NCBI GenBank assembly: GCA_003154115.1
Contig: PMCF01000248.1
Coordinates: forward strand, 1 to 57,682
Direction: 5' to 3'
Source: Anaerolineae bacterium
GTDB lineage: Bacteria; Chloroflexota; Anaerolineae; Fen-1058
DNA: 57,682 nucleotides
Part shown: positions 13,700-57,682 of the stretch, in pieces
How the letters are laid out: the number at the start of each line of letters is the position of its first letter
Position numbering within the stretch: the first letter of the stretch is position 1
The notes under the pieces: model-generated
Seen by the model: the letters and a program-made list of their open reading frames with translations, nothing else
The model's database searches: none
Told to the model about the DNA's origin: nothing
Translations under genes and position numbers: made by a program

Positions 13700-13724
13700 A
13701 GCAATCTCCAGCGAAAAAGTAAAG

Positions 13725-13796
13725 CGAGATGGATGGATTCGAACCATCAACCTGCACCATTGCTGGTGTCATACTCTACCGTTGAGTTACATCTCA
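13725..13796 (-). tRNA. tRNA-like element with aberrant anticodon arm
   Basis: 72 nt on the minus strand. The acceptor TGAGATG/CATCTCG pairs over 7 bp (last pair T-G), the D arm ACTC-AACGGTA-GAGT is perfect, and the T arm GATGG-TTCGAAT-CCATC is perfect with the canonical TTCGAAT loop. The anticodon arm only forms CACC-AGCAAT-GGTG, with a 6-nt loop, no U33 and an extra unpaired A on the 5' side. The loop could present GCA (Cys) but not in canonical register. CCA is not encoded. It lies between two minus-strand phage genes (13818-14039 and 13571-13699). It is either a decayed phage tRNA or a tRNA mimic. Confidence 0.6.
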
Positions 13797-32335: not shown

Positions 32336-32652
32336 AGGCACATCTGGACAGCATCAAACAGGCTGTGCGTGAGCACTTGAAGTACCGGGAATACAAGCGG
32401 TTGATTCGTATTCCCGGTACGGCACTTACTTTGTGCCCGAAAGAAGCCATTCTCCCCAATGGCGATCCTGATGGTGTGCCTGACGTGTATTTGATTTATC
32501 GAGACTGCGTAGATTGGGGAAAGATGTGGTGGGACGGCGGCATGGCCGATCAGCCTCACTTTTTAATGCTAGAGTTTGCCGCCTGTCGCGCAGCCGAACG
32601 CGACTTTGCCACTACCGACTTACCGTTCTTGGAGGGACTCGCCTCTAAATGA
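32332..32652 (+). CDS. Frameshift extension of tail chaperone (gpGT-like T domain)
   Basis: About 106 residues (LKAHLDSIKQAVREHLKYREYKR... to ...LEGLASK) with no usable start of its own except an unsupported GTG at 32365. It is in the -1 frame relative to 31895-32335, so it is best read as the C-terminal extension made by frameshifting. Contains a Trp/Cys-rich patch (YRDCVDWGKMWWDGG). Its stop overlaps the ATG of the giant gene (ATGA). Confidence 0.7.
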   Translation, partial: LKAHLDSIKQAVREHLKYREYKRLIRIPGTALTLCPKEAILPNGDPDGVPDVYLIYRDCVDWGKMWWDGGMADQPHFLMLEFAACRAAERDFATTDLPFLEGLASK

Positions 32653-35600
32653 TCACTCAGTCACTTAAGCCCGTAACCTATCAAGATGTCGTAGTCCACC
32701 CCTCGAAGGTAGCGTCGATGACGCACACCGATCCGAGCGGCGTGCGTGATCGGCAGATCATCAGTCAGAAAGCGATGATGGACGCGCAGTCGCAACAGTC
32801 GATGGACATCGGCACTAACTTTGATAACTGGTTATCCAGTGACGAAATTCAGACCATCATTCAGCGCAGCATCCGCAGTGGCGGGACTGTGGCGCAGATG
32901 CTCCAGAGATATGGTTTCGCCGGGATGCGTACGCAACGATTCGTCGAGGGCAAGATAGGCGACGTTCGTTTCGGTGGAACGTATGACTTGGCTTTCACGG
33001 ACGCACAGGGCAAAGAACAATTGATTCCTGACACCAAGGTATCGGGGGGTCGGGAATTCATCTCGCAGCCCGCCTCTGGCGCACTCGTGATCGGGACGGG
33101 CAAGGGTCGCACGAACTACGGTATGCAGGTGCAGGGTTACGCCTACGCCACTGGCGCGCAGCAGGTGGCTATCACCAAGATCAATCCGCAATCGGCTGGC
33201 GAGATTCGGTCGCACTTTGACACGTTGAATGACGCCGATCGGGAAGTGTACTTGGCGAAGGTGCTGGAAGCGTATCTGGCGGGTGGTCAGAATGTTGCCA
33301 ACACAGGCGACTTGAGTGACGCGGTAGTCGCTGGCCTGCCACAGATCCAGGCTATTCAAACCCTGCGGCAGAACGTGCTGCCACAGAGCGAGTTCGAGAA
33401 GGGTGGCAAGGTCTACGGTGAGTATCGCGGTGTGGCCGAGCGCGATGCGGTCATTGAACGGCTTACTGGCGTCTCAGCAGAGAAACTTAATTCCGACAAA
33501 CTCAATCCAATTCCGGCAGGGCACGAGCAACAATATGCGCAGATGTACGCGGTGGCCAGCAAGCTGGCCGACGAAGTTGTAAAGGGTACGGTTCTCCCGT
33601 CGGATGCGAAGCGCATCCTCGATCGCGTGCAGTACGCCTCGCATGTGCCGTGGGATTCGTCCAAGGTGCAAGGCGCACGAGCGAAGGGTGCAGGCGTCTC
33701 AGAGGGACCGCTAGGATCCATCTCATCTAACTATGGCGAAGCGGCTCCGGCGGGATTGGCAAAGATTCTTGGCAGTGGCGTTCGGGTGGAGGGTGATGAG
33801 GTTACGGTCGCGTCGGAAGGCAATCGCAATGACGCGACTGGGCTTATGCCGGTGGCCTGGCGCGGCAAGATCGGCGAGTTTCGTGGCCGTCCTGTTGTCA
33901 ACAACTACCTGATCGCCAAAGAACAAGGCACTGACGGCAAGGTGCGTGAAGCCAAGCTGCTCCAAGAGGCACTGATCACTTTCGAGCGCGCCGGCGGCGG
34001 TTCGATTGGGGCCGATAAGGTCAAGCAGTTGATGCTCGTCAAAATGCAGGGGATGCCGTGGCTCAATCCTGCCTGGCAGAACGTTTCTTCGTCTGGCGCT
34101 CAGGCCCTGCTGCGCGAAGCAGTGCATCTGACCGGGACTGAAGACATTCAGGCATGGTACGCCAAGTCCCGTGAATACAACCTCGTGGCGCGTGGCGACG
34201 ATCCCAGCATTGGTTACGCCATCGACAAAGTGATCTCCGCGACGGCAGGTGGCACGGCCGCTAACGGCATGGTCTACACCGGTGAGCAAGACCCCTTGAA
34301 GGTTGAGAAGCGTTTGCAGCAAGCCCTTCGCCGTGAAGGGCTGATGAACGCGCAAGTAGGTAAGGATCGCAACGTCGCGTCTGTGATCCAGATGGAGGGT
34401 GCCGATCGGGTTGAGTTTGGTATCCGCCTGCGCCGAGCCGCGATGACCAGCGTCTTGCCGGAAGGCATGGGTATGGTCGATGCCGATGTGATGCGCGAGA
34501 TGGGTTACCTGGAATTGCCGTACGCGCACCGTATCCAGATCAATCAAGGTGACATCTTCCAGGCCAACGCCAAACCAGAACTGGTGAATGGCAAGTTGCA
34601 CTTGGGCACGATCAACGGCGTGCCCAAGACCATCGATCTCAAAGACTTCCAGGACTTCAAACTTGGCGGCGAACCGAAGATCGTCATTGAGAACGGCAAG
34701 CAATACATTGAGTTGAGCGGTATTGGGCGCATCGATCCGGCGTCTGATACGTTCAAGTCGTGGCTTGGCAACAAGTACATGGGCATGGCCGAGGAAGGAT
34801 TGTCTTACGGCACACGTGCCCACGGATCACTCAAGGAAGGATCGATTGAGGCTCTACTGCCCATGCCGAAGAACATTCGGCAAGCGGCCTACGTCATGCT
34901 GGCGGGTGAGTACGGAGCTGGCGAAAACAAGCGCAAATCACAGAAAAACTTCGACGCCCTAACTAGAGAGTTTAAGGAGGCAGGGGTCGATCTGGCCGAG
35001 CGCGGTTTGTTGACTGACTACTCTGACGAGGAAATCAAGCACGCCAAGTCTCTGGGCATCGCTCTACCCTCGAAGAAGATCATCTGGAACCACAGCTTAG
35101 ACGAAGCCGTAGAAAAAGTGGCGCGTAAGAAATATGCGAGTGCGCTGCGCCTGGGCAAGAACACTACCTTCAACCGCAATATGTCCTATGAGGAAGCGGC
35201 GATGTATGCGCGCATCCTTGGAGAAGACGCCCTCCGGATTGGCAACAATGGCGGCACGCTGGAACAGTGGGAACTCCTGCGCAATCAACGGCAGACCATC
35301 GGCGTGAGTCTGACTGTGCCGACGGCGATCATGTCCGTGATGCAGCAGTTCGAGCACCAGTCCACGGGCCGGGCTTCGTTGTCGATGGAAGAAGCCATTG
35401 ATATGGTGAAGTCGGCTGGCAACCATCTGGACAACGGTGGTTTCCAAACGGCTGAGTACGCCAAGTGGGTCAAGGATCAGTTCATCCCGGCGTTGGGGGC
35501 GAAGTCGGGTCACACCCGTGAATACTACGACAAGTTATTTGATGCCCAACTCGCTTCGCGCGGTGGGCTGAAACTCGACGAGTCGAACGTCGTTTCGATT

Positions 35601-38600
35601 GAACAAGTCGCGGAATACTTCAAGGGCGTGAACTTCCACCAAGCACTCGCCGGGGCGCGTGGAAGTAGCGAGAGCAATCCGTTGCTGTCCGCGATTCAGG
35701 GCAAGATGATTCGCCTGGGCGACGGCACGATCATTCCGCCACTTAACACGCTGGCGATCATGTCCGTGGGCAGCGAGATGCATGATGCGCCCGGCCACAA
35801 GTACGATGACGAGTCGGACAAGTTCCCGCAAGAGGAACACAACTCGCTGATCTACTCGCTGGAAAATCTGATGGCCGAGAACCAGGGTTCTGCGCCGGCG
35901 CAAAAATACTCCAAAGAGCTGGCCGAGAAGCTGGATAAACTTGTGCGCACCAAGAGCGTGAACAAGAACATTGCCGCGTTCAACGTCACCGGATCGGGCG
36001 GCACCGAGCAGCCCTACGTGGGCACGACGGGCCTGCGCCCGTGGCAAGTGGTCATGGGCAACAAGGCGCTGCGCGATCTGTTCGGCACTGATGACATCGG
36101 AGAAGTAAATCGACGCATAGCGGCTGGCGAGAACATGGTGCTGACTCAGCGTCGGCCCAACCCCCTGCCCGAACTAACCTCGATGACCCCCATGCAAATC
36201 CTGACACCTGAGATGGCGCGTTCTCAGGGTGCTAACCATATCTCCAAAGCGTTTAATGGGATTGCTTTCTCGCAAGCCGCGATGGACCCGAAACAGGGCG
36301 ACTTTGACGGCGACCGCGTGTTGGCTATCTTGGCCGCATCCTACAGCATGGGTGACATGGGCAAGCAGATGGGCCTTGATGGGACGAATCTGGAAGACGC
36401 CTATCTGGGCAAGATGCGTGACGCACTTGAGACGATGACCGGCAACACGGGCAAGTACCTCAAGGGCGAGTTCACGTGGGATCGGTATCTCGACGCTGTG
36501 ACCGAACTGCGTAAGTCGTCCGGTAGCAATATGTCGGAAGTAGCGAAGTGGATGCAGACGGTTGGTGACGACTCGGCCTCGATGGACAAGTTGATCGGGA
36601 AAGAGGGCAAGTTCCAGGCCGGGATGACCATCGATCAGGTGCGCAGTGCCTACATGACGCGCCAACTGTACAAGAAGCAAATGGGTATGGTGATGAATCG
36701 CTTCACGCGCAATGCGGGTCAGATGATGGAAGGGCTTGGCCTGACTCAACGTACAGACTATCAGCAGACGGCTGATCGGCTGCGTTACTTTACCTATCAA
36801 GCCTCAATCGACAATCCAGTTAGCACAGGTCTGCGTCGACTGATTGAAATTTCAGACTCTTACACGCCAACAACAGACGGCGAGGGTGGACGCCTGTACG
36901 GAAATATCAGGCATGGCCTGCGCCAAGAGATGGGCGAAGATACGCTTGAGAAGGTTGACTTCAAGGACATGCCTGCTGAGATCATCAAGGCGACGTTGGC
37001 GTCTTCTGAAATGCGCGGGTTGGGCAAAGAGGGATCGCTGATCAACGAGTCATGGGCGGAGGACATTGGCCGCTTACTGACATCCAACACAGATCGGGCA
37101 GGTCAGATCGCCGCGTTGATCAAGGGCAGCAAGTTGATCGCGGATCCATCTGACGAGCGCGAAATCCGGTCACTGACGGCCGACATCCTCCAGGAAGTGT
37201 ACGGCGACAAGACTGAGGACTTCTGGGCCGAGCCTGGCGTCATGCCGGCGATCATCGGCGGGCACATGGCGAAACGCGCCGAACGCCGTGGCGGTGGGGC
37301 CAACTACGACATGCTGTTTAGCGATGACTATAACCGCTATCAGGGTGGCAAGCGCGTCAGCGGATGGGGCGCGATTGCCGAATTATCAAAGGGCATGCAA
37401 GCCGAGCAATCCTTCTTCAGCGGCCGTAGCGGTGAAGTTAGTACCGATCAGATGATCAAGGACATCGCCGGGATGAAGGGTCGCCTGCCTGACGTGATTC
37501 GTTCAGTGCTGAATGTCTCGAACCGGGCCATTCCAGAGGAATTGCTACGCCGACTGGCACCCAATAGCCAGACACGCGACGCCACACGTCTCTCCGCGAT
37601 CGTGGGCCGGTACAAGCAAACCGACGCCTATCAAAAACTTGGCAATCAATTCGGCGGCGTTGATGAACTGGCGTTCATGACCGACGACGAGATGAAGAAC
37701 ATTCTCATGCGTAAAGACGAGCTGATGCGGAATGGCATGAGCGAGTCTGATGCGCTGGCGAAGATTGCCGAAGAAAAGAAAACGTCGTCAGCCAAGATCG
37801 CTGAAGAAGCAGCCGCAGGCGTAAATGCTTTTGACCGAGAAGATGGTACTTCGCAACCGCAACCGAAGAACACCCGCGACGGTTCGCTCAACGGGTATCG
37901 CGCGGGCGTTAACTTCCCGCGCCCGACGATGGCCAGCACGTTCGGTGGGCCTGCCTGGGGTGAATTGCTCAAGCGGATTCGCGCCGGTGAACAGATTCCC
38001 GATCGAGCGGCAGCCGCGGCGATGATGGGCGGCGAGGGTGAAGCGAACATTACCAAGTTCGGCATGTCGGCAATTCAGGCGCTTGGACAGGGAGAGAAGG
38101 GATACAAGACCTTCCAAACTACCTATGATCGCTTGAAGACACTTGGCGCGCACAGTTTGGCGGCTGAATATCAAAAAGCGGCAGCAAACGCCGGCGTGCT
38201 TAATAACGAGTATGGCAGTAACTATTCTACTCGGCTCGATCAGGCGCAGGCAGGTGCTATCAACAATCCGACGGCCCTGATGGGCGTGCTGACCGACTAT
38301 CAGACCGGGCAGATGGGCAAGAAGGGTGTTCAGTCCATTGTGCAGACATCGGGTGTCAAGGGGATGAACGGCGTTCTGCAGGAGATTGATCGCCGCAACT
38401 CAGCCATTCAGCACACCTCGCCCGATGAACGCGAGGGCATGACCAAGCAACTGCAAGAGTACATGGCAACAGCGGCTGGTAAGGCTTCCTTTGGCGACAA
38501 GAAGCAATTGGTAGACGCTGATCACCTTGAGGAAATGGGCAAGGCGGCAGCGCGTGTTACGGAACATCTCGGTAAGTTCACCGGTGGATTGAAAGATGCG

Positions 38601-41600
38601 ACTGAACTGGTTGGCAAGAACCAAGCGCCGAAGGGCGTAGGGAAACTAAAGCCTGATCTCGACATGGTTTCACAGTTGGTGAAGGCGGCGGATCGTGGCG
38701 ACTCTACCGCTCAGGGCATTCTGTCCAGCCATGATGAGAAGGGTATTCGCCAGGTGGCCGGTGAAAACACCAACCTTGACGACAAGATGAAGCGCGCCAT
38801 GCTGGAAGGCAAGGGCGAGTTCAACCCAGACGGGCCGTTTAGCAAACGCCTGGGAAGCTTCATGAATGACATGACATCGGGGTTCGAGTTGTTCCGCATG
38901 CAGCGCATCTGGAGTGCAACCGGTGGGCAGACGTTCAACAAGTACATTCCCGCCGCGGCGAGCGATGCTCTTACGCTGGCTGGCGCGTCACGTGTTATCG
39001 GTGGGGATCGGGTCGGGCCTATCTCTGGCATGGCTGGCGAAATGCTCCAGGGCGAAGCCGCGCGCAAAGACATCAACATCAATGCAGGCAAGAAGGCGTA
39101 TCAAGCTTGGGGTCCGTTCGTCAATGCTAATGCGGGATGGTTTTCAGACGCGCAGGCTGTGGCTGGCCCGGCACTTGGTGCAGGACTCATTACGGGGTTT
39201 GTTGGATCAAATATCGCCGGACTGCTTGGTGCTGGCGCGATGGCGAGTCCGATTGGGCTGCTGGCGGGGGCGGGAGTTGCTGGCGCTGGTCTATTCATGG
39301 CTAATCGCAATATCCGCGAAGCCGAAAGCAAGATCACACCAGACAATCAACTGACTAATGCGCGAAACATGGCGTTGTCCGGTATCGATCTGGGCGCTAT
39401 GCGCCAACAACTGGCAGAGAAGCAGAAGGAGCCTGAAGTTGCGTGGTGGACGTACCTACTTTCTGACTTTGGCTACATGGCGCAAAGCGAACAGAAGTCT
39501 CAGCGCGCGTCCGAAGTTGGCAAGATGAAGAACGCTATTTCGGGCGCAGAGAAGATCGCGGGTGTCTCACTTGGCAATTTGCCGGGAGAATACATCCAGC
39601 CAACGGTAGAACTGATGGCTAAAGATTCGGCCAATAAGGGCATGTTCATTGGCTACGATCAAGAAGCGATGAAGAAGAAGATTCAAACCGCTGCGCCTTA
39701 CGACTCCGACATGATGAACTTTCGGCCCGTGAGCACTGATCAGTTCCAGGCGACCAGTTTCATGAAGCGGCTCGAATCGTCGGCACTTGGCTTCGAGGGT
39801 GCATTGAATCTCGCACAACAGACGGCCGCTAAATACAATCTTGGCCCACAGAGCGTCGAGGGTGTGGCAAACAATCAGCCAACCTCGATGAAAGACATCC
39901 TCGGCTATATGTACAAAACCGATATGTTTGCGCCGGCGCAAAGGTGGGGGATCAATCCGTTGGCCGCAAGCAAGCTGCCCCTGCTCGAAGGGAGAGACGC
40001 GATTCGCGCCCAAGACCTAATGAGCGGCGACCGTACAGCCTGGACGAAGACTGGTACAGACTTGTGGAATCAGGGTGTGCGTGATCTGGGAAATGGCGAT
40101 CAGATTCAGGACGTGTTCACGATGGAGCCTGGCACGATGGCACCCATTGGCACGACGGACACATCGAAACGTTCACGCAAGGCGATTGCTGGCGCACAGG
40201 CCACGATGGGCCTGCGCACGGGTGAGTTCGGAATCAATGCCGACATGAGTAATCTGGGGTCAATTGCTTCGCTGGAAACGACCAAACGCGATCTGGAATA
40301 CGGTTACCAGATGCAGCAGTTCAGTTTCCAGAATCAGGCTCTACAGTCTCAACGGGATTACGCGATGGGCAGGCCAGCCGTCTACAACGGCAGCCAGATG
40401 GATCCTGGCCTCGTTGGGTCGTTTGGTTGGCAGGAGCGGAGTCAAGCTGAGTCAGTGCGTCACACGCAGGCGCAGGCGACGATTGCCGCCGGCACGATGA
40501 ACTTTGGTTATCTGGGCCAGGGACTCAGCCAACAGGTGGCCGGGGCCAGTCTGAGTGAGCTGGGACAGTCGGGCGTATCCTATCGGCAGTTCTATGAAAA
40601 CCTGGACTTGAATCGGCGCCAGTCGAAGATTGGGCGTGATTACAGCGCTGAGGATGCTCAAATATCGCACGATCGCGGCACTATGCAAATAGGTTGGCAG
40701 CAGAGTGATCTTAGTACAAACTTCGGGCGGCAGATGACGGATTTCACTCATCAGTTGCAAGACCTAACTACCAATATGTCCCGCAGTCGCACACAGACGG
40801 GCTGGCAGCAGGAGCAGATCGCCTTTCAGGGAGCACAAACATCGCTCAACTATGGCTGGAATTCGGAAGACATTGACGAATCCCTGCGTTATGCAACAGG
40901 TCGTGATCGCCGAAGATTGTTAAAGCAAAAAGAGCGATCAACAATATCATACGCCATGAACATGGGCCAACTAGACACGGAATCTGGTCATCTCAAGGAA
41001 AAATCAACCTGGTCGGAAGAGGATTTCGCTAAAGACAAGTCTCGCATCGAGGAACGGCGTGCGTGGGCCAGTGCCGATTTCGAGAAAGAGAAAGGGCGGC
41101 TCGATCAGCGTGACGCCTGGCTTGACGAAGACCTGGCGCGCGCGTTGGTTAGACTCGGGACGCAAAACACCCTAGAGGATGAATCCTACGCCCTCCGGGT
41201 TAAGCAGTTCGAGGAAGATATGGCAATGAGCAAGACCAGTCACGACGAGGGTCTAGCGAATGCTAAAGCACTTGCCGATATTCAAACGGGGTCGGCCGCC
41301 GAGGCCAGGTCGCAGTTTGAGGACAACTGGAGTCGCAATAAGGAAGAAGCAAGTGCGGCCCAGACTCAATATGGACTGATGCGCGATACGGTGGGGCAAT
41401 TGAGCGCGGCCACAGCGGTTGCTTCAATACAGGCAAACGTTTTTGCATATGACTTTGGGGACAAAGACGGCGTAATGGCGAAGTCGTTCGATATGTTCAC
41501 CAAGAGATTCGGTGGCATGTTCGATCAGATCAACACATCGACTGACGACGCAGGCAGACGGATCAAGGCCATGTTGGACAGTTTAGCGTCTGGAACTCAG

Positions 41601-41651
41601 TCGGTTCCTTACAAAGAAACGTGGAGCGGTGGCGGCACCTACGGGAGATAA
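32649..41651 (+). CDS. Giant tape-measure protein fused to an RNA-polymerase-like core and a PD-(D/E)XK nuclease region
   Basis: 3000 aa. ATG 32649 overlaps the chaperone stop (ATGA). Residues about 60-190 carry a RecB/Cas4-type nuclease pattern: Asp113 in GTYDLAF, PDTK with Asp128 and Lys130, and QxxxY at 160-164. Around 600-780 is a beta-rich region (PEGMGMVDADVMREMG) that could be the first double-psi barrel. RRPNP (1168-1172) and GDFDGDRV with DFDGD at 1218-1222 match the RxP and metal-binding loop of the beta-prime-type barrel of multisubunit and QDE-1/YonO-type RNA polymerases; QMGMVMNRFTRN (about 1343) follows. About 2170-2220 is a Gly/Ala-rich hydrophobic span. The last ~500 residues form Gln/Arg/Glu-rich helices typical of tape measures. 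Position sets the tape-measure role; polymerase and nuclease activity are inferences. Confidence 0.85.
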   Translation: MITQSLKPVTYQDVVVHPSKVASMTHTDPSGVRDRQIISQKAMMDAQSQQSMDIGTNFDNWLSSDEIQTIIQRSIRSGGTVAQMLQRYGFAGMRTQRFVEGKIGDVRFGGTYDLAFTDAQGKEQLIPDTKVSGGREFISQPASGALVIGTGKGRTNYGMQVQGYAYATGAQQVAITKINPQSAGEIRSHFDTLNDADREVYLAKVLEAYLAGGQNVANTGDLSDAVVAGLPQIQAIQTLRQNVLPQSEFEKGGKVYGEYRGVAERDAVIERLTGVSAEKLNSDKLNPIPAGHEQQYAQMYAVASKLADEVVKGTVLPSDAKRILDRVQYASHVPWDSSKVQGARAKGAGVSEGPLGSISSNYGEAAPAGLAKILGSGVRVEGDEVTVASEGNRNDATGLMPVAWRGKIGEFRGRPVVNNYLIAKEQGTDGKVREAKLLQEALITFERAGGGSIGADKVKQLMLVKMQGMPWLNPAWQNVSSSGAQALLREAVHLTGTEDIQAWYAKSREYNLVARGDDPSIGYAIDKVISATAGGTAANGMVYTGEQDPLKVEKRLQQALRREGLMNAQVGKDRNVASVIQMEGADRVEFGIRLRRAAMTSVLPEGMGMVDADVMREMGYLELPYAHRIQINQGDIFQANAKPELVNGKLHLGTINGVPKTIDLKDFQDFKLGGEPKIVIENGKQYIELSGIGRIDPASDTFKSWLGNKYMGMAEEGLSYGTRAHGSLKEGSIEALLPMPKNIRQAAYVMLAGEYGAGENKRKSQKNFDALTREFKEAGVDLAERGLLTDYSDEEIKHAKSLGIALPSKKIIWNHSLDEAVEKVARKKYASALRLGKNTTFNRNMSYEEAAMYARILGEDALRIGNNGGTLEQWELLRNQRQTIGVSLTVPTAIMSVMQQFEHQSTGRASLSMEEAIDMVKSAGNHLDNGGFQTAEYAKWVKDQFIPALGAKSGHTREYYDKLFDAQLASRGGLKLDESNVVSIEQVAEYFKGVNFHQALAGARGSSESNPLLSAIQGKMIRLGDGTIIPPLNTLAIMSVGSEMHDAPGHKYDDESDKFPQEEHNSLIYSLENLMAENQGSAPAQKYSKELAEKLDKLVRTKSVNKNIAAFNVTGSGGTEQPYVGTTGLRPWQVVMGNKALRDLFGTDDIGEVNRRIAAGENMVLTQRRPNPLPELTSMTPMQILTPEMARSQGANHISKAFNGIAFSQAAMDPKQGDFDGDRVLAILAASYSMGDMGKQMGLDGTNLEDAYLGKMRDALETMTGNTGKYLKGEFTWDRYLDAVTELRKSSGSNMSEVAKWMQTVGDDSASMDKLIGKEGKFQAGMTIDQVRSAYMTRQLYKKQMGMVMNRFTRNAGQMMEGLGLTQRTDYQQTADRLRYFTYQASIDNPVSTGLRRLIEISDSYTPTTDGEGGRLYGNIRHGLRQEMGEDTLEKVDFKDMPAEIIKATLASSEMRGLGKEGSLINESWAEDIGRLLTSNTDRAGQIAALIKGSKLIADPSDEREIRSLTADILQEVYGDKTEDFWAEPGVMPAIIGGHMAKRAERRGGGANYDMLFSDDYNRYQGGKRVSGWGAIAELSKGMQAEQSFFSGRSGEVSTDQMIKDIAGMKGRLPDVIRSVLNVSNRAIPEELLRRLAPNSQTRDATRLSAIVGRYKQTDAYQKLGNQFGGVDELAFMTDDEMKNILMRKDELMRNGMSESDALAKIAEEKKTSSAKIAEEAAAGVNAFDREDGTSQPQPKNTRDGSLNGYRAGVNFPRPTMASTFGGPAWGELLKRIRAGEQIPDRAAAAAMMGGEGEANITKFGMSAIQALGQGEKGYKTFQTTYDRLKTLGAHSLAAEYQKAAANAGVLNNEYGSNYSTRLDQAQAGAINNPTALMGVLTDYQTGQMGKKGVQSIVQTSGVKGMNGVLQEIDRRNSAIQHTSPDEREGMTKQLQEYMATAAGKASFGDKKQLVDADHLEEMGKAAARVTEHLGKFTGGLKDATELVGKNQAPKGVGKLKPDLDMVSQLVKAADRGDSTAQGILSSHDEKGIRQVAGENTNLDDKMKRAMLEGKGEFNPDGPFSKRLGSFMNDMTSGFELFRMQRIWSATGGQTFNKYIPAAASDALTLAGASRVIGGDRVGPISGMAGEMLQGEAARKDININAGKKAYQAWGPFVNANAGWFSDAQAVAGPALGAGLITGFVGSNIAGLLGAGAMASPIGLLAGAGVAGAGLFMANRNIREAESKITPDNQLTNARNMALSGIDLGAMRQQLAEKQKEPEVAWWTYLLSDFGYMAQSEQKSQRASEVGKMKNAISGAEKIAGVSLGNLPGEYIQPTVELMAKDSANKGMFIGYDQEAMKKKIQTAAPYDSDMMNFRPVSTDQFQATSFMKRLESSALGFEGALNLAQQTAAKYNLGPQSVEGVANNQPTSMKDILGYMYKTDMFAPAQRWGINPLAASKLPLLEGRDAIRAQDLMSGDRTAWTKTGTDLWNQGVRDLGNGDQIQDVFTMEPGTMAPIGTTDTSKRSRKAIAGAQATMGLRTGEFGINADMSNLGSIASLETTKRDLEYGYQMQQFSFQNQALQSQRDYAMGRPAVYNGSQMDPGLVGSFGWQERSQAESVRHTQAQATIAAGTMNFGYLGQGLSQQVAGASLSELGQSGVSYRQFYENLDLNRRQSKIGRDYSAEDAQISHDRGTMQIGWQQSDLSTNFGRQMTDFTHQLQDLTTNMSRSRTQTGWQQEQIAFQGAQTSLNYGWNSEDIDESLRYATGRDRRRLLKQKERSTISYAMNMGQLDTESGHLKEKSTWSEEDFAKDKSRIEERRAWASADFEKEKGRLDQRDAWLDEDLARALVRLGTQNTLEDESYALRVKQFEEDMAMSKTSHDEGLANAKALADIQTGSAAEARSQFEDNWSRNKEEASAAQTQYGLMRDTVGQLSAATAVASIQANVFAYDFGDKDGVMAKSFDMFTKRFGGMFDQINTSTDDAGRRIKAMLDSLASGTQSVPYKETWSGGGTYGR
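35890..35903. repeat. Phage palindrome site 10 (variant)
   Basis: CTGCGCCGGCGCAA, first base differs. Coding (SAPAQK) inside the giant gene, about 400 bp before the DFDGD codons. Confidence 0.8.
39928..39941. repeat. Phage palindrome site 11
   Basis: Exact TTGCGCCGGCGCAA (extended TTT...AAA), coding (FAPAQR) in the tape-measure part of the giant gene; rightmost site. Confidence 0.9.
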
Positions 41652-46129: not shown

Positions 46130-47358
46130 TGGCGAACGTACAGTTCAAGCAATGGATGTGTTCTGACACAGAACCATCGTTCACGCAAGAGACAGGGCTG
46201 CAGCGTCTACTGGCCTTCGCCGGTATTCACAATACCGCCTCGCGTTCGCTGGTGCCCGATCAGGTCGGGGTCTACAACTGGCGAGAGGACTATCAGGGCG
46301 ATGCGACTTTCGATGCGAGTGGCTGTTCCCTTGGCGGAATTGACAACGGAGTATGGAATAAGGTCTTCTTGACCGCCGACGTTTCCTATGGATTTACAGC
46401 GGACTTCGACAAAGAGGGCACTGTCGGCGGGTTCCTGTTTGGGGGCAAGACCGGTAGTTGGCGTTGCTATCTGGTGTGGTGGACGGCCAGTCGGGTTGGA
46501 TTGTCGCTATTGAACGGCACGGACGGATACACCGAGTCACCCCTGCTCTCGCTTCCCTTCTCTGCCATCGATGCCGCGCACATACAAGTCGCCGTGAAGG
46601 GGATCAGTTCAACGGCCATCGACAAGGTGGACGATCTCATGGTGACGTTGCGCCTCGATGATCGCGTGATCTTCTCCTACGCCATGCAGCTTGACACGTC
46701 CATCGGCAATCAGATTGGTCTCGCCGTGCAGGGAAATAACGCGGCGCGTTTCGAGAACCTACGTGTAGCGCAGTTTCACCAGATCATCGAGATCGCGTCA
46801 GTCGGCCCGACCGAGAAAGCCGCAGCCGGCGCGAGTCGCATCCTGGGCATGGAGATGATTCGCCTGCAGGCCCGCTTCGATGGCAGTGTCCTGATCTGGC
46901 GCAACGATTTGTCTACTTCGGACTGCACCATTCAGCAGGGTGACTACAAGACATTGACGGTCAAGGAAGACCTGCTGTCGCCTACGCACTTCCGCCTGAC
47001 GGGCGGATTGTACGAGGCCGATGTCTACGCCGGCCTGGATAACGCCACGGGTATCGCGCAGCATCGCGGCCACATTTTTGTGACGGCCAATGATCCCAAT
47101 GCACTGGTCGAGCGCGATACTTTCGATCGGGCCAAACGCAAAGCGCGCGAGACAGTCGAGGCGGCTAACGCGATTGAAATCGACGTGCCCTTCAAGCCAT
47201 TGCTGGAAGCAGAGGATGTGATTGAAGTGGTGTTTCCCTACGGCATCACGCCGGTTTTGTATCGCGTGACCACCATCGACTTCAAGTCGTCGAGCACCAA
47301 AGACGCGACTCAGTTCGAGAGTAAGTTATCTTGCCGGAGGCTGATCAGTGGTTTCTAA
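46129..47358 (+). CDS. Putative tail hub/baseplate protein with lectin-like insertion, 409 aa
   Basis: ATG 46129 overlapping the previous stop (TAATG). N-terminal lectin-like beta domain (about 20-220). The C-terminal half includes RDTFDRAKRKARETVEAANAIEIDVPF and VIEVVFPYGITPVLYRVTTIDFK, which resembles the phage hub (gp27-like) pattern. If so, it is a hub decorated with a binding domain. Based on motif resemblance. Confidence 0.5.
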   Translation: MANVQFKQWMCSDTEPSFTQETGLQRLLAFAGIHNTASRSLVPDQVGVYNWREDYQGDATFDASGCSLGGIDNGVWNKVFLTADVSYGFTADFDKEGTVGGFLFGGKTGSWRCYLVWWTASRVGLSLLNGTDGYTESPLLSLPFSAIDAAHIQVAVKGISSTAIDKVDDLMVTLRLDDRVIFSYAMQLDTSIGNQIGLAVQGNNAARFENLRVAQFHQIIEIASVGPTEKAAAGASRILGMEMIRLQARFDGSVLIWRNDLSTSDCTIQQGDYKTLTVKEDLLSPTHFRLTGGLYEADVYAGLDNATGIAQHRGHIFVTANDPNALVERDTFDRAKRKARETVEAANAIEIDVPFKPLLEAEDVIEVVFPYGITPVLYRVTTIDFKSSSTKDATQFESKLSCRRLISGF

Positions 47359-49087
47359 AGCGCAACTTCCCTACGTGTTGGAGCAAGCCACAGTTATAAG
47401 TTACGACCCGCGCGACCCACGCTCGATTGCGATCCGTACTTCCGGTGGGCGCGTGATCCGTAACTGCATGTCGAGCGGTGGTTCGGTAAGCGTGGGATCG
47501 ACGGTGATGGCCGTCATCTCCCATTACGACAACGGCGCTGTCATCATCGGCACTGTGCAGAACTCGTCCTCAATTGCTGCCGCAGGAACCAGCTGTAGTA
47601 ATGCGGCGCTCAATCCACCGTCCGGCCTGCACATCACGCACACGGTGCGACAGATCGACTTGCAGTGGGATTTCTACCCCGGCAATGATAGTGTCTGTTA
47701 TCAGGTGCAGCACAATGCCACGGGCGAGGAAGACGGTACGGAAGTATCGGCCCTCGTCACCAAAGGCTCGAGCTTCATCTATGACTGCACGACGCCGAAC
47801 GAGACACGTTATTTCAGAGTGCGCGCTTTGCAGTGGATCACTGCTGGCAATGTGTTGTACTCCGCCTGGGCTGAATGGCAGCAAGGCTCGGCCTATCAGT
47901 TGCAAGCCGTGGACATTCCCAATCTGGATGCAGCCAAGATTGCCACGGGAATCCTGCCCATCGAGCGAGGTGGCACCAACGCCGGAACAGCCGCCGCTGC
48001 CCTCAACAATCTGTTACCGGCACAGAGTGGCAATACGGGTAATGTGTTAGGGACTGATGGTTCAGTGGTCAGCTGGGTTGTTGGTGGAGGCAGCGGGGGC
48101 GGTTCAATCACAATCGCTAATCTGCCCGTAGGCGTTATCATTCCTTATGGCAGCACCATCATGCCGACCGGTTGGTTAGAGTGTGATGGTTCAGCCATTA
48201 GTCGCACAACTTATGCCGATCTCTTCGCTGTGATTGGCACAACCTATGGATCTGGAGATGGCAGCACCACCTTCAATTTGCCTGACTTGCGTGGGCGCAT
48301 GTCGATCGGACGTGGTACGGGTAGTGGACTTTCTGTGCGGGCGATGGGAGATAAGAACGGAGATGAAACTCACACTCTATCGGTAGCAGAAATGCCAGCG
48401 CACGGTCACGGCGAGGTAGACAAAGATGGCGTACCAGTATCCTCTGGTAAATTCCCAGGCACAGGAGCAATGACAATTGGAACGGTTTCGGCTGATCCGG
48501 AAGGACAACCGATGACCAGTAACACCGGCGGCGGCGGGGCGCACAATAACATGCCGCCATTCGTCGTGATGGCCTGGATCATCAAACATACCGATACAGC
48601 CACTGCGGATGTGATCTTCAACGATAGTGTCCTGCCCGAAGCAGTTGCAGATGTAGGGTCGCCGGGTGATGACATCTACGCCGCCCGACGCGATCATGTG
48701 CATGCCTCCTCGATAGGTGGTGGACACGCGATTGCGTCGGAGTTTGATCTGGTGCCGCCGGAGCCGATTCTTAATTTTAGTGCTGCCTTCATGTTGGATG
48801 ATGATCCGGTCAATGGACGCACGTTGGTCGATCTAGCGCGACCTCCGTTGACTGTGGAAGAAGTTGATGGATCACCTTCTGTATCTGTGTTGAGAGTTCG
48901 GGTCGGCAATGGCGATCTTGTTGACGAAGGAGATGGAGTCGTGCGCCTCAAGACGGCTTCTGACGCAAGTGGAGTGGCGGCAACAGGTCGCTATCGGCAG
49001 TTTGTGTTTGTAGTTTCTGATGGTGACTTTTCATTTGTAAAAATAACAGACGGTCATCCTGTGACCGTCCTACTACCCCTGGAGTGA
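47348..49087 (+). CDS. Tail collar/spike protein with OB-fold, fibronectin III and tail-collar domains, 579 aa
   Basis: GTG 47348 after GGAGG, overlapping the previous gene by 11 bp. N-terminal OB-like domain (LEQATVISYDPRDPRSIAIR ... SVGSTVMAVISHYDN) as in gp5-type spike proteins; an FN3-like domain (about 95-185); then a phage tail-collar domain with the hallmark GWLECDGSAISRTTYADLF and FNLPDLRGRMSIG; a His-rich turn (MPAHGHGE) and MPPFVVMAWIIK. The collar module is well known at the tail tips of long-tailed phages. The C-terminal 160 residues are another beta domain. Confidence 0.8.
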   Translation: MVSKAQLPYVLEQATVISYDPRDPRSIAIRTSGGRVIRNCMSSGGSVSVGSTVMAVISHYDNGAVIIGTVQNSSSIAAAGTSCSNAALNPPSGLHITHTVRQIDLQWDFYPGNDSVCYQVQHNATGEEDGTEVSALVTKGSSFIYDCTTPNETRYFRVRALQWITAGNVLYSAWAEWQQGSAYQLQAVDIPNLDAAKIATGILPIERGGTNAGTAAAALNNLLPAQSGNTGNVLGTDGSVVSWVVGGGSGGGSITIANLPVGVIIPYGSTIMPTGWLECDGSAISRTTYADLFAVIGTTYGSGDGSTTFNLPDLRGRMSIGRGTGSGLSVRAMGDKNGDETHTLSVAEMPAHGHGEVDKDGVPVSSGKFPGTGAMTIGTVSADPEGQPMTSNTGGGGAHNNMPPFVVMAWIIKHTDTATADVIFNDSVLPEAVADVGSPGDDIYAARRDHVHASSIGGGHAIASEFDLVPPEPILNFSAAFMLDDDPVNGRTLVDLARPPLTVEEVDGSPSVSVLRVRVGNGDLVDEGDGVVRLKTASDASGVAATGRYRQFVFVVSDGDFSFVKITDGHPVTVLLPLE

Positions 49088-52436: not shown

Positions 52437-53011
52437 GGTGTGTCAAAACGTGATGTTAGCCATAAGCTGGATCTCGATGGGATAAGACCAGAGATTGGGG
52501 TCTTTTGCAGAGAGGTCATGCTTCACGCATGATAGCGGCAATCAACAACTTAGTCCTAGGAGTTTTGCTTAATCGCAGTAAAAACGTACCCGATTCACGA
52601 CACATATCTCACCTTTCGACCATTTTTCCATGCCACCCGCGAATTAAGAATGCCTAGTTTTCAAGGCATTTTCGCGCTGGTGGACAAGGCCCCGGGTGTC
52701 GCTGAGCCAAGTTTTCACCTGCAACATCTTGAGTCTAAGCAGGCAACCCGCTCTAATTCGGCTAAAAACCAGGGTGTTTTGCGACTTATGTTCGAGTTAA
52801 TTCAAAAACGGCGCTCCAAAATGGTCGAAAGATGAGACATATAGTATGGTAAACCGGTTATATGCGTTTCCACTGATTTTGTATCGTTCCGGATGAATTT
52901 GTACAAGCCTTGGAAACGTTACGCGAAGATATATGCAGCTGAGCAAATCCGATTTATATAGATAAGTGGTTGGTCAAATGTAAGGCAGAACAATCCCTGA
53001 TAAGGCATTAG
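52437..53011. other. 575-bp non-coding region with MITE-like element
   Basis: No convincing gene. Contains the inverted-repeat element at 52607-52837 and A/T-rich flanks. A 61-codon open frame inside that element shows no recognisable protein features. Confidence 0.4.
52607..52837. mobile_element. Putative MITE (231 bp) bounded by 20-bp inverted repeats
   Basis: TCTCACCTTTCGACCATTTT (52607-52626) is the inverse complement of 52818-52837 with one mismatch. Inside there is a short open frame without known motifs. Non-autonomous element is the simplest reading; target duplications were not identified. Confidence 0.5.
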
Positions 53012-53095
53012 TGGACAGGGAGGGAATCGAACCCCCGAACGGCGTCGCCGGGCTGATTTACAGTCAGCGTCCTTTAGCCACTTGGATACCTGTCC
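53012..53095 (-). tRNA. tRNA-Tyr (GTA)
   Basis: Minus strand GGACAGG acceptor pairs perfectly with CCTGTCC; D arm CCAAGTGGCTAAAGG; anticodon arm GCTGA-CTGTAAA-TCAGC with GTA; a long class-II variable arm (CCGGCGACGCCG); T loop TTCGATT. CCA is not encoded. Full, normal-looking gene; likely former integration target near the integrase fragment. Confidence 0.95.
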
Positions 53096-53404: not shown

Positions 53405-54648
53405 GCTTGTGTAAAAAGGTGGGAGCCGGGTATCCTTTTGGTCACCACAACCGAAAGAGGATACCATGACGACTCCCGAGTTATGGCATACTGCGCCGCT
53501 GGTGATCAGTCAAGCCGATTTTCAAGCATTGCTACGTGACAAGTTGTGTCTGGCTGTTCGGCTGATGTTGAATCAAGTGTTGGATTTGGAAGTCGAAGCC
53601 TTCATTGGTGCAGCGCCTTACGAGCGCACACCCACGCGCCAAGATTATCGGAATGGCAGTTACGAACGCGGGCTGGTGACCGGCGTTGGGTCGGTCACGT
53701 TAACGGTGCCGCGCACCCACAGGGGCTTCACGAGCCTGGTCTTTGAGCGCTATTGTCGCCGGCAGGTCGAATTGAATCAGGCCATCGGTGAAATGTTTGT
53801 CAAAGGTGCGAGCACCGCGCAAGTCGGTGAAATTATCGTGACCTTGACCGGCGTGAAGCCCAGCCCATCGGCGGTGTCCCGGGTGCATCAAACGCTCCAG
53901 CACGAGTTTGATACTTGGAAACAGCGGCCGTTGCTCGCCCAGTATCTGTATGTGTTTGCAGACGGCACGTACTTCACGGTCATCTATGATAACGAAGGCC
54001 ACAAAATGCCGGTGCTGGCGGTCGTGGACATCACGCCAACGGGCACCCGTGAGGTGCTGGCCTTTATCACTGGCGACCGCGAGAACGAGGGCGCATGGAC
54101 CGACTTGCTGACGGATTTGCAGCGGCGTGTGACTTACAGAGCGTCGGCTTGTGGATCACGGACGGCAATCAAGCGATGCTCAATGCCTTGGCCGCCAAGT
54201 TTCCGACCACGCCCCGGCAGCGCTGCGTGCAACACAAACTGGCCAACGTCTTGGGCCACATTCCCAAGGCCCAACATGATCAAGTGGAACCGAAACTTAA
54301 GGCGATCTTCTACCAGACTAGCCGCGAGAAAGCCGACCAAACCTGGGCTGCCTTCTGCGAAAAGTATGCCAAGATTTACCCGGCGGCGATCGAGTGCTTG
54401 AAACGCGACGGCGAAGCTTGTCTGGCCTTCTACGCGTTCCCGCCGACGCATTGGAAGACGATCCGAACCACCAACATCATCGAACGTCTCTTGGAGGAGG
54501 TGAAAAAGCGCACCCACAAAATGAACGCCGCGTTTCGCAATGAAGACAGTTGTTTGTTAATGTTCTATGCCGTGATTCGCAGGTTGAAGTTCCGCCGCAT
54601 CGCGGTCGAGACCAAGGCTTAACCCGCCCCACCTAAATTACACAGGAC
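53405..54648 (+). mobile_element. IS256-family insertion sequence
   Basis: About 1.24 kb. Imperfect terminal inverted repeats: left TGTGTAAAAAGGTGGGAGCC near 53409, right end inverse complement TGTGTAATTTAGGTGGGGC near 54648. Inside is one mutator-type transposase frame broken by a frameshift. No clear target duplication seen. Confidence 0.75.
53466..54622 (+). pseudogene. IS256-family (Mutator) transposase, frameshifted
   Basis: Frame 1 (53466 to about 54130) contains the N-terminal part and FADGTYFTVIYDNEG (first Asp). After a single-base indel near 54130 the frame continues as LQSVGLWITDGNQAML (second Asp), CVQHKLANVLGHIPK and TNIIERLLEEVKKRT (Glu) to 54622. All DDE residues remain across both frames, so the shift is recent. 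IS256 members do not normally need a frameshift, so this copy is probably inactive. Confidence 0.85.
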
Positions 54649-54870: not shown

Positions 54871-54954
54871 AAGGCCGGTAAGCACATGTTTGCTGATTTT
54901 AAACAAGAACAGGTCCGCACGCTCAAGCATCAATGATTCCACCCTTTTGGCAAA

Positions 54955-55839
54955 ATGAACATGTCTGATAGCTTTGTCATTAAACGCGTTGAGCTCTTCG
55001 AAGACTTTCTAGAAATCGAGGACTTGCAAAAGACTATCTGGGGGTTTGTCGAAACACAGGTAGTGCATGCACGCCTCCTAATCGAAATGCAAAAGAATGG
55101 CGGTTTGGTTCTCGGGGCCTTTGACCAGACCACAGGAAAGCTCATAGCATTTCTTTTAGGTTATCTCGGATTGGAAAATGGCGAAGTTAAGCATTGTTCA
55201 GATATGTTAGGCGTCCTACCGGAGTTTCGGTCAAAACAGTTAGGCTATCAACTCAAATTGGAACAACGCAATCACGTCCTGTCGCAAGGAATCAGGTTAG
55301 TAACGTGGACTTTCGACCCACTAGAACGGGTAAATGCCTCACTGAATATCGGAAGACTAGCTGCAATTTCAAGGATCTATCATCAAGATCTTTTTGGCAC
55401 TAACTTTGGAAGTCTGAATGCTGGCATGCCAACAGATCGCTTACTGGTTGAATGGTGGATCAAGAGTCCACGAGTTCATATGCGGCTGGAGCAACAATCT
55501 TCCGCGTCCAATCTACAACGAGACCTAAGAGAAAACGCAGCATTGATTAATCAAACTAAGCGGATTGGTGGTTTATCTAAAGTGATAAGTCGCAATCTCG
55601 ATCTATCCGATCCTGTGTTGCTACTCGAAATTCCAGACAACATCCAACTAATTAAGGTCACTGATATGGATACTGCCATGGAATGGCGGTTGAATATTCG
55701 TGAAATTCTCGAAAGATACTTTGCCCAAAACTATGCGATCGTGGATTTCTTCAGTGAGAGTCATGGCGAATATCGGCAAAGCTACTATGTTCTTCGGCAT
55801 TTCGAAGACTCATTTCAAGGTAATGAACTCACATTCTAA
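54955..55839 (+). CDS. GNAT-superfamily acyltransferase (COG3375-like)
   Basis: 294 aa from ATG 54955 (ATG 54961 also possible). Contains the COG3375 pattern: LQKTIWG, GGLVLGAFDQTTGKLIAF, MLGVLPEFRSKQLGYQLK (acetyl-CoA loop), VTWTFDPLERVNASLNIGRL and MPTDRLLVEWWI. Members often sit beside enzymes of N-acyl amino acid or o-succinylbenzoate/racemase type metabolism (family knowledge); here the neighbours are a TyrRS-like protein and an MIO enzyme. Probably acylates an amino group, perhaps of a tyrosine-derived product (inference). Confidence 0.75.
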   Translation: MNMSDSFVIKRVELFEDFLEIEDLQKTIWGFVETQVVHARLLIEMQKNGGLVLGAFDQTTGKLIAFLLGYLGLENGEVKHCSDMLGVLPEFRSKQLGYQLKLEQRNHVLSQGIRLVTWTFDPLERVNASLNIGRLAAISRIYHQDLFGTNFGSLNAGMPTDRLLVEWWIKSPRVHMRLEQQSSASNLQRDLRENAALINQTKRIGGLSKVISRNLDLSDPVLLLEIPDNIQLIKVTDMDTAMEWRLNIREILERYFAQNYAIVDFFSESHGEYRQSYYVLRHFEDSFQGNELTF

Positions 55840-56136
55840 ATTGAAGACTATCACGCGCAGAACACGATAATCTGTCATGCCATCGGCTGAAAGACGGCTA
55901 GAGAAAGCGTTAAGTACGCATTCCATACCAATGTTTAATAATAACTTGCGGACGATCAAATGTTGATCCTTGGCCAAGGTTCAGCCCATCCCAATCCTAT
56001 TGATTGACCGTACGCAGTTAAGCTCGCAAAACTTTCCAGTCTTCGCGGGAATCTTGTGAGCTTTGAGCTGGGCATTCGTTTGCGCTGGTGTGACGGCGCG
56101 TAAGATGTGGCAGTCGTAAATTCAGGCAGGCATATC

Positions 56137-57105
56137 ATGTATAGTGAATCAGCGAAATCTCAATTGGAACAACTACGGCGGGGTGTTGTTGATATTATTC
56201 CTAGCGAGGATGCACTTCTCGACAAGCTTGAGCGATCTATTAAAGAGCGCCGTCCACTTCGGGTCAAGTTAGGCATTGATCCCACCAGCACGGAACTACA
56301 TCTTGGACACATTGTCCCGCTTCGGAAACTAATGCAATTCCAAGAGTTAGGCCATCATGCTATATTGATAATAGGGACCTTTACTGCCCTGATTGGAGAT
56401 CCTGAAGGGCGAAAATCCACCCGCCCTCATATTTCGAGACAAGAAGTTCTAGAAAACGCCAAAGAGTGTCAATTTCAAATAGAACGTCTGATTGGTTCGA
56501 GTAAAATCGAGATAGTATATAACGGGGATTGGCTTGACCAGTTGAGCGCTATAGATTTCATGAAGATCACCGAAAGAATCACCTTACAACAGCTTCTGAC
56601 GCGCAAAGATTTTGCAAGCCGGATCAAAACGGATTCACCGCTACATATACACGAGCTTATGTACCCGACCGTGATGGGGTATGACTCGGTCCATCTGCAT
56701 GCAGATGTAGAGCTAGGTGCCACAGAGCAGGTATTGAATATTTATATGGGGAGAGAGCTTCAGGAACAACATGACCAGGAACCGCAGGTTGGGATAATCT
56801 TGCCAATCTTAGTTGGACTAGACGGTACTGAGAAGATGAGCAAGAGTTTAGGAAATTATATTGGTATTCAAGAAACTCCCAAGCGTATGTTTGACAAGGT
56901 TAGTAGTATACCAGATAGTCAGATTACACTTTACTACACTTTGTTAACCTCTAAATCGACCTCAGAAATATCCAAGATCGAAGAGGAATTGCGCACTGGA
57001 CTTGTATCAACAGAAGTGACCAAGCGCAACTTGGCTATTGAAATAGTAGGTATTTTCCATGGTCGAGAGATTGCAGAAAGGATCAATATCGACAACTTCG
57101 AATAG
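56137..57105 (+). CDS. Tyrosyl-tRNA synthetase paralogue lacking the S4 domain
   Basis: 322 aa from ATG 56137 (GTG 56107 possible). TyrRS class I core of TyrZ type: HLGH at 55-58, KMSKS at 233-237, IIGTFTALIGDPEGR. Normal TyrRS is about 400-420 aa; this one stops right after FHGREIAERI, where the tRNA-binding S4 domain should begin. Active-site departures: YPTVMGYDS (176-184) has Met180 where TyrRS has the Gln contacting the substrate alpha-amino group, while the Tyr and Asp of this motif are kept; GGxDQ is GATEQ (194-198). Likely activates a tyrosine-like amino acid, perhaps not for translation. Confidence 0.85.
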   Translation: MYSESAKSQLEQLRRGVVDIIPSEDALLDKLERSIKERRPLRVKLGIDPTSTELHLGHIVPLRKLMQFQELGHHAILIIGTFTALIGDPEGRKSTRPHISRQEVLENAKECQFQIERLIGSSKIEIVYNGDWLDQLSAIDFMKITERITLQQLLTRKDFASRIKTDSPLHIHELMYPTVMGYDSVHLHADVELGATEQVLNIYMGRELQEQHDQEPQVGIILPILVGLDGTEKMSKSLGNYIGIQETPKRMFDKVSSIPDSQITLYYTLLTSKSTSEISKIEEELRTGLVSTEVTKRNLAIEIVGIFHGREIAERINIDNFE

Positions 57106-57181
57106 GATTCGTTAGGTCGATTCCAAGTTTTGCCCAGCAGATGTTATCTGACCTGATGTCTGAACCGCGCATAATGTTCTA

Positions 57182-57209
57182 TTGAACCACCCAATTGATG
57201 AGCTATAAT
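57182..57209 (+). promoter_or_regulatory. Sigma70-type promoter before the MIO gene
   Basis: TTGAAC (57182-57187), 16-bp spacer, TATAAT (57204-57209), about 55 bp before the ATG at 57264. The near-perfect -10 shows the lyase gene has its own promoter after the TyrRS-like gene. Confidence 0.65.
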
Positions 57210-57213
57210 ACGG

Positions 57214-57243
57214 CGTGAGTTCTGCAACAGTATCGAACTCACG
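57214..57243. promoter_or_regulatory. 9-bp inverted repeat at the start of the transcript (possible operator)
   Basis: CGTGAGTTC (57214-57222) / GAACTCACG (57235-57243), beginning 5 bp after the -10 box. The placement suits a repressor site or a 5' leader hairpin controlling the MIO gene. Confidence 0.5.
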
Positions 57244-57263
57244 TTAATGTACAGGAGGACTAA

Positions 57264-57682
57264 ATGAGCACTGAACTCAGCCTAGGAAACAGAGTCATAT
57301 CGATCGACGAATTAGTCGAGGCCGCAATGAATTTGGAGTGCCAAGTGAAAGTGGCAGACGCTGCTTGGGATAAGGTTCGACGGGGCCGACAACTAGTAGA
57401 GCGTTGGGCCGATGAGCGCCGAGTAATATACGGAATGACTACCGGGCTAGGTGAGCTTTCACTCAAGTTGGTTCCCCCTCAGTTCGCGGTTGCATTGTCT
57501 CAGAACATTCTCCGAAGCCACGCCGCAGGAGTTGGTGATATTCTGCCTATTTCGACTATCAGGGCGATTATGTTGCTTCGTATCAACTGCTTATCAAAAG
57601 GGACGTCGGGAGTTCGAGAAGAGACTGTGTCAACACTGGTTAATATGTTTAACCGTCAAGTCTACCCTCGTATCCGTTCTCA
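57264..57682 (+). CDS. Aromatic amino acid ammonia-lyase or aminomutase, MIO-dependent (5' part only)
   Basis: ATG 57264 with AGGAGG upstream; 139 residues before the window ends. The N-terminal catalytic Tyr lies in VIYGMTTGLGE (Tyr56), followed by SQNILRSHAAGVGD and LRINCLSKGTSGV, hallmark of the HAL/PAL/TAL/aminomutase family, in which an Ala-Ser-Gly triad forms the MIO cofactor (beyond the edge here). The YGxTTG form with Thr is typical of TAL/aminomutase rather than HAL (YGVNTG). It could yield coumarate or beta-tyrosine; substrate-deciding residues are out of view. Confidence 0.85.
   Translation, partial: MSTELSLGNRVISIDELVEAAMNLECQVKVADAAWDKVRRGRQLVERWADERRVIYGMTTGLGELSLKLVPPQFAVALSQNILRSHAAGVGDILPISTIRAIMLLRINCLSKGTSGVREETVSTLVNMFNRQVYPRIRS

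Follow-up and report, generated by a model that had tools for sequence, protein, structure and literature searches.

A second tyrosyl-tRNA synthetase-like protein without an S4 domain and with an altered amine pocket in an Anaerolineae bacterium

Organization of the locus

The window, meaning the whole stretch of 57,682 nucleotides that was analysed, comes from contig C12 of an Anaerolineae assembly of 7.7 Mb in 460 contigs (96% complete, 8.5% contamination). Three co-directional open reading frames stand at its end, as originally predicted. These include a GNAT-like ORF (54955-55839, forward strand), which is COG3375-like and has relatives annotated as GNAT, a tyrosyl-tRNA synthetase (TyrRS)-like ORF of 332 amino acids (56107-57105, forward strand), and the start of an MIO-family gene (57264-57682, forward strand; PF00221, 124 bits) that runs onward to the contig end at 57815. 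The spacing is loose, with 267 bases between the GNAT-like and TyrRS-like genes and 158 bases between the latter and the MIO gene. Past the window, the contig has 133 more bases, which consist of an ‘nn’ gap followed by SGDLAPLSHLGLVAMGEG... up to its end. Upstream of the MIO gene lie a sigma-70-like promoter, TTGAAC-N16-TATAAT (57182-57209, forward strand, 10 of 12 consensus matches), and a perfect inverted repeat of 9 bp with a 12-base loop (57214-57243, forward strand), which is operator- or hairpin-like and of a kind expected about 0.3 times by chance in the scanned stretch (hand estimate). Hence, the MIO gene may have a transcript of its own. The search for a T-box leader gave no Rfam match.

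The segment that carries these genes differs in composition from the genome. The GC content of 54900-57680 is 0.448 against 0.53-0.60 at other loci; in tetranucleotide distance the segment reaches 0.490, where loci of equal length average 0.209 (SD 0.029). Its left border is a broken Mutator-type transposase (IS256/Mutator, 53466-54622, forward strand), frameshifted into two overlapping ORFs that match PF00872 at positions 26-221 and 223-371. The genome contains this transposase only once, which makes it of no help in assigning the contig to the organism. A second tRNA-Tyr(GTA) gene (53011-53095, reverse strand) sits near the edge of the atypical segment, 3 kb from the TyrRS-like gene, as a neighbour and at most a candidate member of the locus. 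It is identical at 84 of 85 bases to the tRNA-Tyr of a Thr-Tyr-Thr cluster on contig C93; this identity and the mostly near-ordinary composition of the rest of contig C12 argue that the contig belongs to the organism. The tRNA-Tyr was rejected as an attachment site since none of its 14-mers is repeated elsewhere in the window.

Other features of the contig lie farther upstream. The region 20317-49087 is phage-like, with an intein-bearing ORF, an ORF of 3000 residues (32649-41651), and a tail-collar protein (47348-49087), while the other proteins tested in it had no Pfam or PHROG match. A weak tRNA-Ala with the anticodon AGC (13724-13796, reverse strand, 40.8 bits) is unusual in bacteria and is perhaps a pseudo-tRNA or a phage tRNA.

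Descent and distribution of the TyrRS paralogue

The TyrRS-like protein belongs to the TyrRS family by descent, matching TIGR00234 at 278.6 bits over a cut-off of 113.8. It is a second, non-housekeeping copy, as had been proposed from its sequence, since contig C198 of the same genome encodes a complete TyrRS (341 bits, TIGR00234 model positions 18-403 of 406); this excludes the reading that the paralogue is the housekeeping enzyme. The TyrRS on C198 groups in the tree with the TyrRSs of its own family and is vertically inherited. Sequence identity between the paralogue and this enzyme is 40%, and the tree puts the paralogue in a different clade (support 100/100) with enzymes of Acinetobacter, Legionella, and Bacillaceae, a placement that holds at the level of the sequence set. 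Its branch is long, at 2.43 changes per column where the median is 0.37. The other TyrRS clade, the long branch, and the atypical composition beside a broken transposase together indicate that the segment is foreign and the paralogue a horizontally acquired xenologue, as judged from sequence.

Neither the truncation nor the gene neighbourhood recurs in any relative found among 400 phylum genomes and 396 class genomes, so that conservation of the arrangement has no support; likewise, the trio of GNAT, TyrRS, and MIO genes was not found in any relative from these genomes. Among the TyrRS matches listed from both samples, all frames exceed 370 residues and identity is at most 49%. A second TyrRS copy of this kind was not found in a genome of the same genus (G001), the genome_contigs search returned only two relatives, both distant ordinary TyrRSs, and viral contigs held none. 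A separate observation concerns a Pantoea dispersa plasmid (L131, NZ_CP106661.1), where a full-length TyrRS, possibly a resistance copy, lies in an apparent biosynthetic cluster with an O-methyltransferase, a B12-binding radical SAM protein, two phytanoyl-CoA dioxygenases, and an MFS transporter.

Loss of the S4 domain

The ORF starts with GTG at 56107, and an alternative ATG at 56137, from which the residues are numbered here, gives 322 amino acids. The predicted lack of the tRNA-binding S4 domain was borne out: the match to TIGR00234 covers model positions 8-311 of 406, and the C-terminus falls in the alignment at a domain border, right after the alpha-helical domain. When the C-terminal regions of 65 relatives were used as tblastn queries, no S4 remnant was found downstream (nothing above 24 bits), and the 158 bases before the MIO gene are too short for the domain. 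The 332 codons are free of stops and frameshifts. By a hand estimate, a frame this long at a GC of 0.436 would have a probability of about 3e-9 of being open at neutral saturation, which suggests that the paralogue has long been under selection. The predicted structure (mean pLDDT 56) is too low in confidence to use.

Bacterial-type TyrRSs cut before S4 generally keep tyrosine activation and bind tRNA-Tyr more weakly, with the exception of the Plasmodium apicoplast TyrRS, in which S4 loss abolishes activation too (PMC6310243). By analogy, the paralogue should bind and charge tRNA-Tyr poorly. It is not filed as a working tyrosine--tRNA ligase because two defining features are missing, namely the S4 domain and the amine-binding Gln.

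The altered amine pocket

A comparison with 64 aligned homologues showed that the paralogue retains HLGH (55-58) and KMSKS (233-237) intact, along with the Asp of GDP (88), Tyr176, Asp183, and Gln198. The replacement of Gln by Met at position 180 (ATG codon at 56674-56676, forward strand), noted in the original prediction, is real, as the residue is Gln in 64 of 64 homologues and Met in the paralogue only. Phe200Leu and Pro292Thr are likewise unique among the set, and about eight more near-invariant positions are altered besides Met180. In the Methanocaldococcus jannaschii TyrRS, Tyr151, Gln155, and Gln173 bind the alpha-amine (PMC10322718). The spacing of Tyr176, Met180, and Gln198 equals that of this triad, which suggests that one of three alpha-amine contacts has been lost and two have been kept. 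The phenol hydroxyl of tyrosine is presumably read by Asp183, as in the family generally. Since this residue is retained, a 4-hydroxyphenyl substrate with an absent or shifted amine may still be accepted.

The GATEQ sequence in place of GGxDQ, on the other hand, had been overrated as a special feature. Glu replaces Asp in 8 of the 64 homologues, and the exact motif is shared by two ordinary TyrRSs of that class, both full-length (L049 and L052, 407 and 413 residues), which argues against altered chemistry. By sequence comparison, GATEQ is natural variation. A search of viral contigs for VELGATEQ codons gave eight matches, every one unrelated on reading.

The MIO gene

The window holds 139 readable residues of the MIO protein, about the N-terminal third of the gene, and the missing two thirds are on no other contig of the assembly. 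The Ala-Ser-Gly triad, expected past 57682, coincides with the ‘nn’ gap. Just the Ser-Gly end of the triad is readable, and the Ser codon begins inside the gap. The flanks, ...RIRS and (S)GDLAPLSH, fit the MIO triad. About five to seven codons of the motif would be expected at this point, so the length of the gap (C12:57683-57684) is probably a placeholder.

The fragment gives little encouragement to the suggestion that the enzyme acts on tyrosine. It scores 118 bits for histidine ammonia-lyase (HAL), 98 for D-beta-Phe aminomutase, 78 for FlxA-type TAL, and 74.5 for Tyr aminomutase, and the NCBIfam hutH model gives 106 bits. As yardsticks, the corresponding stretch from the genome's own HutH reaches 147 bits for HAL; a Streptomyces Phe aminomutase, cut to that stretch, reaches 191 bits for its own model and 101 for HAL. 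The nearest relative found (G025, 47%) is a full HutH equivalog over the cut-off. The fragment is accordingly filed as MIO family and HAL-like, and it falls clearly into none of the aromatic families. Ser-His is its readable selectivity pair. By alignment offsets, the counterparts of His86 are His83 in HAL and His93 in the Streptomyces Tyr aminomutase, so that this residue does not tell the two enzymes apart. We take Tyr56 and His86 to align with the catalytic Tyr and the pocket His of both.

A separate HutH (C109) and a urocanase (C138) are encoded in the same genome, and an extra HAL-like copy is hence not needed for histidine breakdown. Histidine breakdown may nevertheless be the role of the gene. 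The genome holds another MIO gene as well (L010/L011, G000:C17:1266-1774), which is frameshifted and truncated and is a paralogue of an intact one on C32.

The GNAT-like gene

The assignment of the first gene to a COG3375-type GNAT holds in part: its relatives are annotated as GNAT, but the protein itself stays below the Pfam and NCBIfam cut-offs (PF00583, E = 0.075). A single-sequence structure prediction (mean pLDDT 34) was too poor to use. Relatives occur in 84 of the 400 phylum genomes, about a fifth, and two more are present in the same genome. Relatives adjoin menC/N-acylamino-acid-racemase genes in Lysinibacillus, Deinococcus, Priestia, and Sulfitobacter plasmids, and the same adjacency is seen in two phylum genomes (G141 and G013). 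Additional neighbours include an M20 aminoacylase and a D-Ala-D-Ala ligase, once each. The racemase genes beside its relatives make an amino-acid N-acyltransferase the likely role of the protein. No racemase or aminoacylase gene is in view beside the GNAT of the window, which sets it apart from the N-acylamino-acid racemase operons that carry the same GNAT family.

Comparison with known systems

Synthetase paralogues outside translation are known for several amino acids, such as the CysRS-like MshC, the IleRS-like SbzA, and the SerRS VlmL. To our knowledge, no bacterial TyrRS paralogue without S4 acts as a free-standing ligase. The closest comparison by descent is the KLG-type bacterial TyrRS clade (closest solved relative PDB 6bqy), whose members are up to 47% identical to the paralogue (Acinetobacter) and share its catalytic and alpha-helical domains, HLGH, and KMSKS. 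Unlike them, the paralogue lacks S4 and carries the Gln-to-Met change in the amine pocket and the other near-invariant changes. The closest comparison by proposed function is the mycothiol ligase MshC, a paralogue of CysRS and likewise of class I, where an aminoacyl-adenylate is likewise expected and a tRNA role is absent. In both cases, the paralogue is a second copy beside a complete housekeeping enzyme. MshC, however, is of the cysteine lineage and has a defined acceptor, whereas the substrate and acceptor of the TyrRS paralogue are putative.

That class-I synthetase paralogues can take up amide ligation is established (PMC2922099; PMC9437257). In SB-203208 biosynthesis, the synthetase-like SbzA works in the same amino-acid conjugate pathway as a GNAT, SbzC (PMC6331615). 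SbzA, however, resembles IleRS, has several domains, uses Ile-tRNA, and lies in a full gene cluster, whereas no cluster is seen at the TyrRS paralogue. The methionyl-tRNA synthetase paralogues, proposed to be peptide ligases, have a GNAT in some neighbourhoods, but they differ from the TyrRS paralogue in their strict partners, a cupin and a lysine monooxygenase, and in being widespread among bacteria (PMC2922099). The available part of one review names no S4-less TyrRS ligase of this kind (PMC9437257). In the literature searched, no report was found of a TyrRS with an aminomutase or of TyrRS self-resistance clusters.

Interpretation of the locus

The best explanation, at a probability of roughly 0.4, is that a class-I synthetase paralogue now serves acyl-adenylate chemistry independent of tRNA, in the manner of MshC. 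A horizontally acquired tyrosine-type synthetase would have been drawn away from translation. With its ATP motifs (HLGH and KMSKS) and most of the tyrosine pocket kept, it would form an acyl-adenylate from a tyrosine-like acid. With S4 lost, it would hand the acyl group on to some small nucleophile rather than to tRNA-Tyr, as MshC does with cysteine. The Gln-to-Met change would suit a substrate whose amine is masked, moved, or absent, and the GNAT (by N-acylation) and the MIO enzyme (by deamination or an amine shift) are of kinds that could make such a substrate. The sequence shows how the locus is built, the second TyrRS copy and its foreign source, the retained catalytic motifs, and the unique Met180; the activity, the substrate, the acceptor, and a single pathway for the three genes are what we infer. 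That the GNAT, the paralogue, and the MIO enzyme work together is a guess, given the loose spacing, an arrangement seen once, and a contig that ends inside the MIO gene. The MIO gene's own promoter-like site, its HAL-like fragment, and borders formed by a transposase remnant and a contig end speak against recruitment. The changed near-invariant residues also count against it, as decay explains them equally.

Decay is the main rival, though a less likely reading. A mobile segment would have brought in a full-length TyrRS, which then shed its C-terminal domain and is drifting among neighbours that are unrelated passengers. The adjoining transposase remnant, the atypical composition, the long branch with its several changed near-invariant residues, and a neighbourhood that is not conserved in the 400 phylum and 396 class genomes all agree with this. 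A decaying gene, however, fits poorly with an intact frame of 332 codons in which every ATP-site motif is kept, and with an end at the domain border that leaves no S4 remnant downstream.

The proposal of a tyrosine-centred locus is borne out in its second, S4-less copy and the unique Met180, and it finds no support for an MIO enzyme acting on tyrosine or for a significance of GATEQ. The boldest reading, a TyrRS remade into a free-standing, tRNA-independent ligase for a product of the MIO or GNAT enzyme (beta-tyrosine, coumarate, or N-acylated tyrosine), is doubtful. A pathway in which the MIO enzyme makes beta-tyrosine, coumarate, or a related 4-hydroxyphenyl acid and the TyrRS-like protein activates it is improbable. 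It would account for the loss of the amine-site Gln with the phenol-reading Asp183 kept, for an MIO gene directly downstream, and for the alignment of Tyr56 and His86 with HAL and the Streptomyces Tyr aminomutase, but the fragment scores HAL above Tyr aminomutase and TAL with HutH as its nearest relative found, a separate promoter-like site precedes the gene, and two of three amine contacts are kept.

Just as improbable is a backup or inhibitor-resistant TyrRS, as also suggested originally, which would still charge tRNA-Tyr, perhaps together with the extra tRNA-Tyr 3 kb away. Resistant second synthetases are known for other amino acids (PMC9437257) and a second tRNA-Tyr gene is indeed close by, yet this gene is near-identical to the housekeeping one and lies on the opposite strand beyond the transposase. 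The reading requires tRNA charging and is disfavoured because the protein has no S4 domain to recognise the long variable arm and should bind tRNA-Tyr poorly (PMC6310243). Least probable is a truncated synthetase whose targets are RNA or protein, in the GluQ-RS manner, and which makes no metabolite; an RNA-modifying truncated synthetase is cited in PMC9437257, but the locus has no contextual link to tRNA modification, and such paralogues are usually widespread, whereas this one turned up in one genome only.

The claim for recruitment to acyl-adenylate chemistry is a modest one. The TyrRS paralogue is real and unusual, and a tyrosine pathway is not established. If active, the paralogue would be a natural TyrRS with changed amine recognition, which may be useful for activating non-alpha-amino acids.
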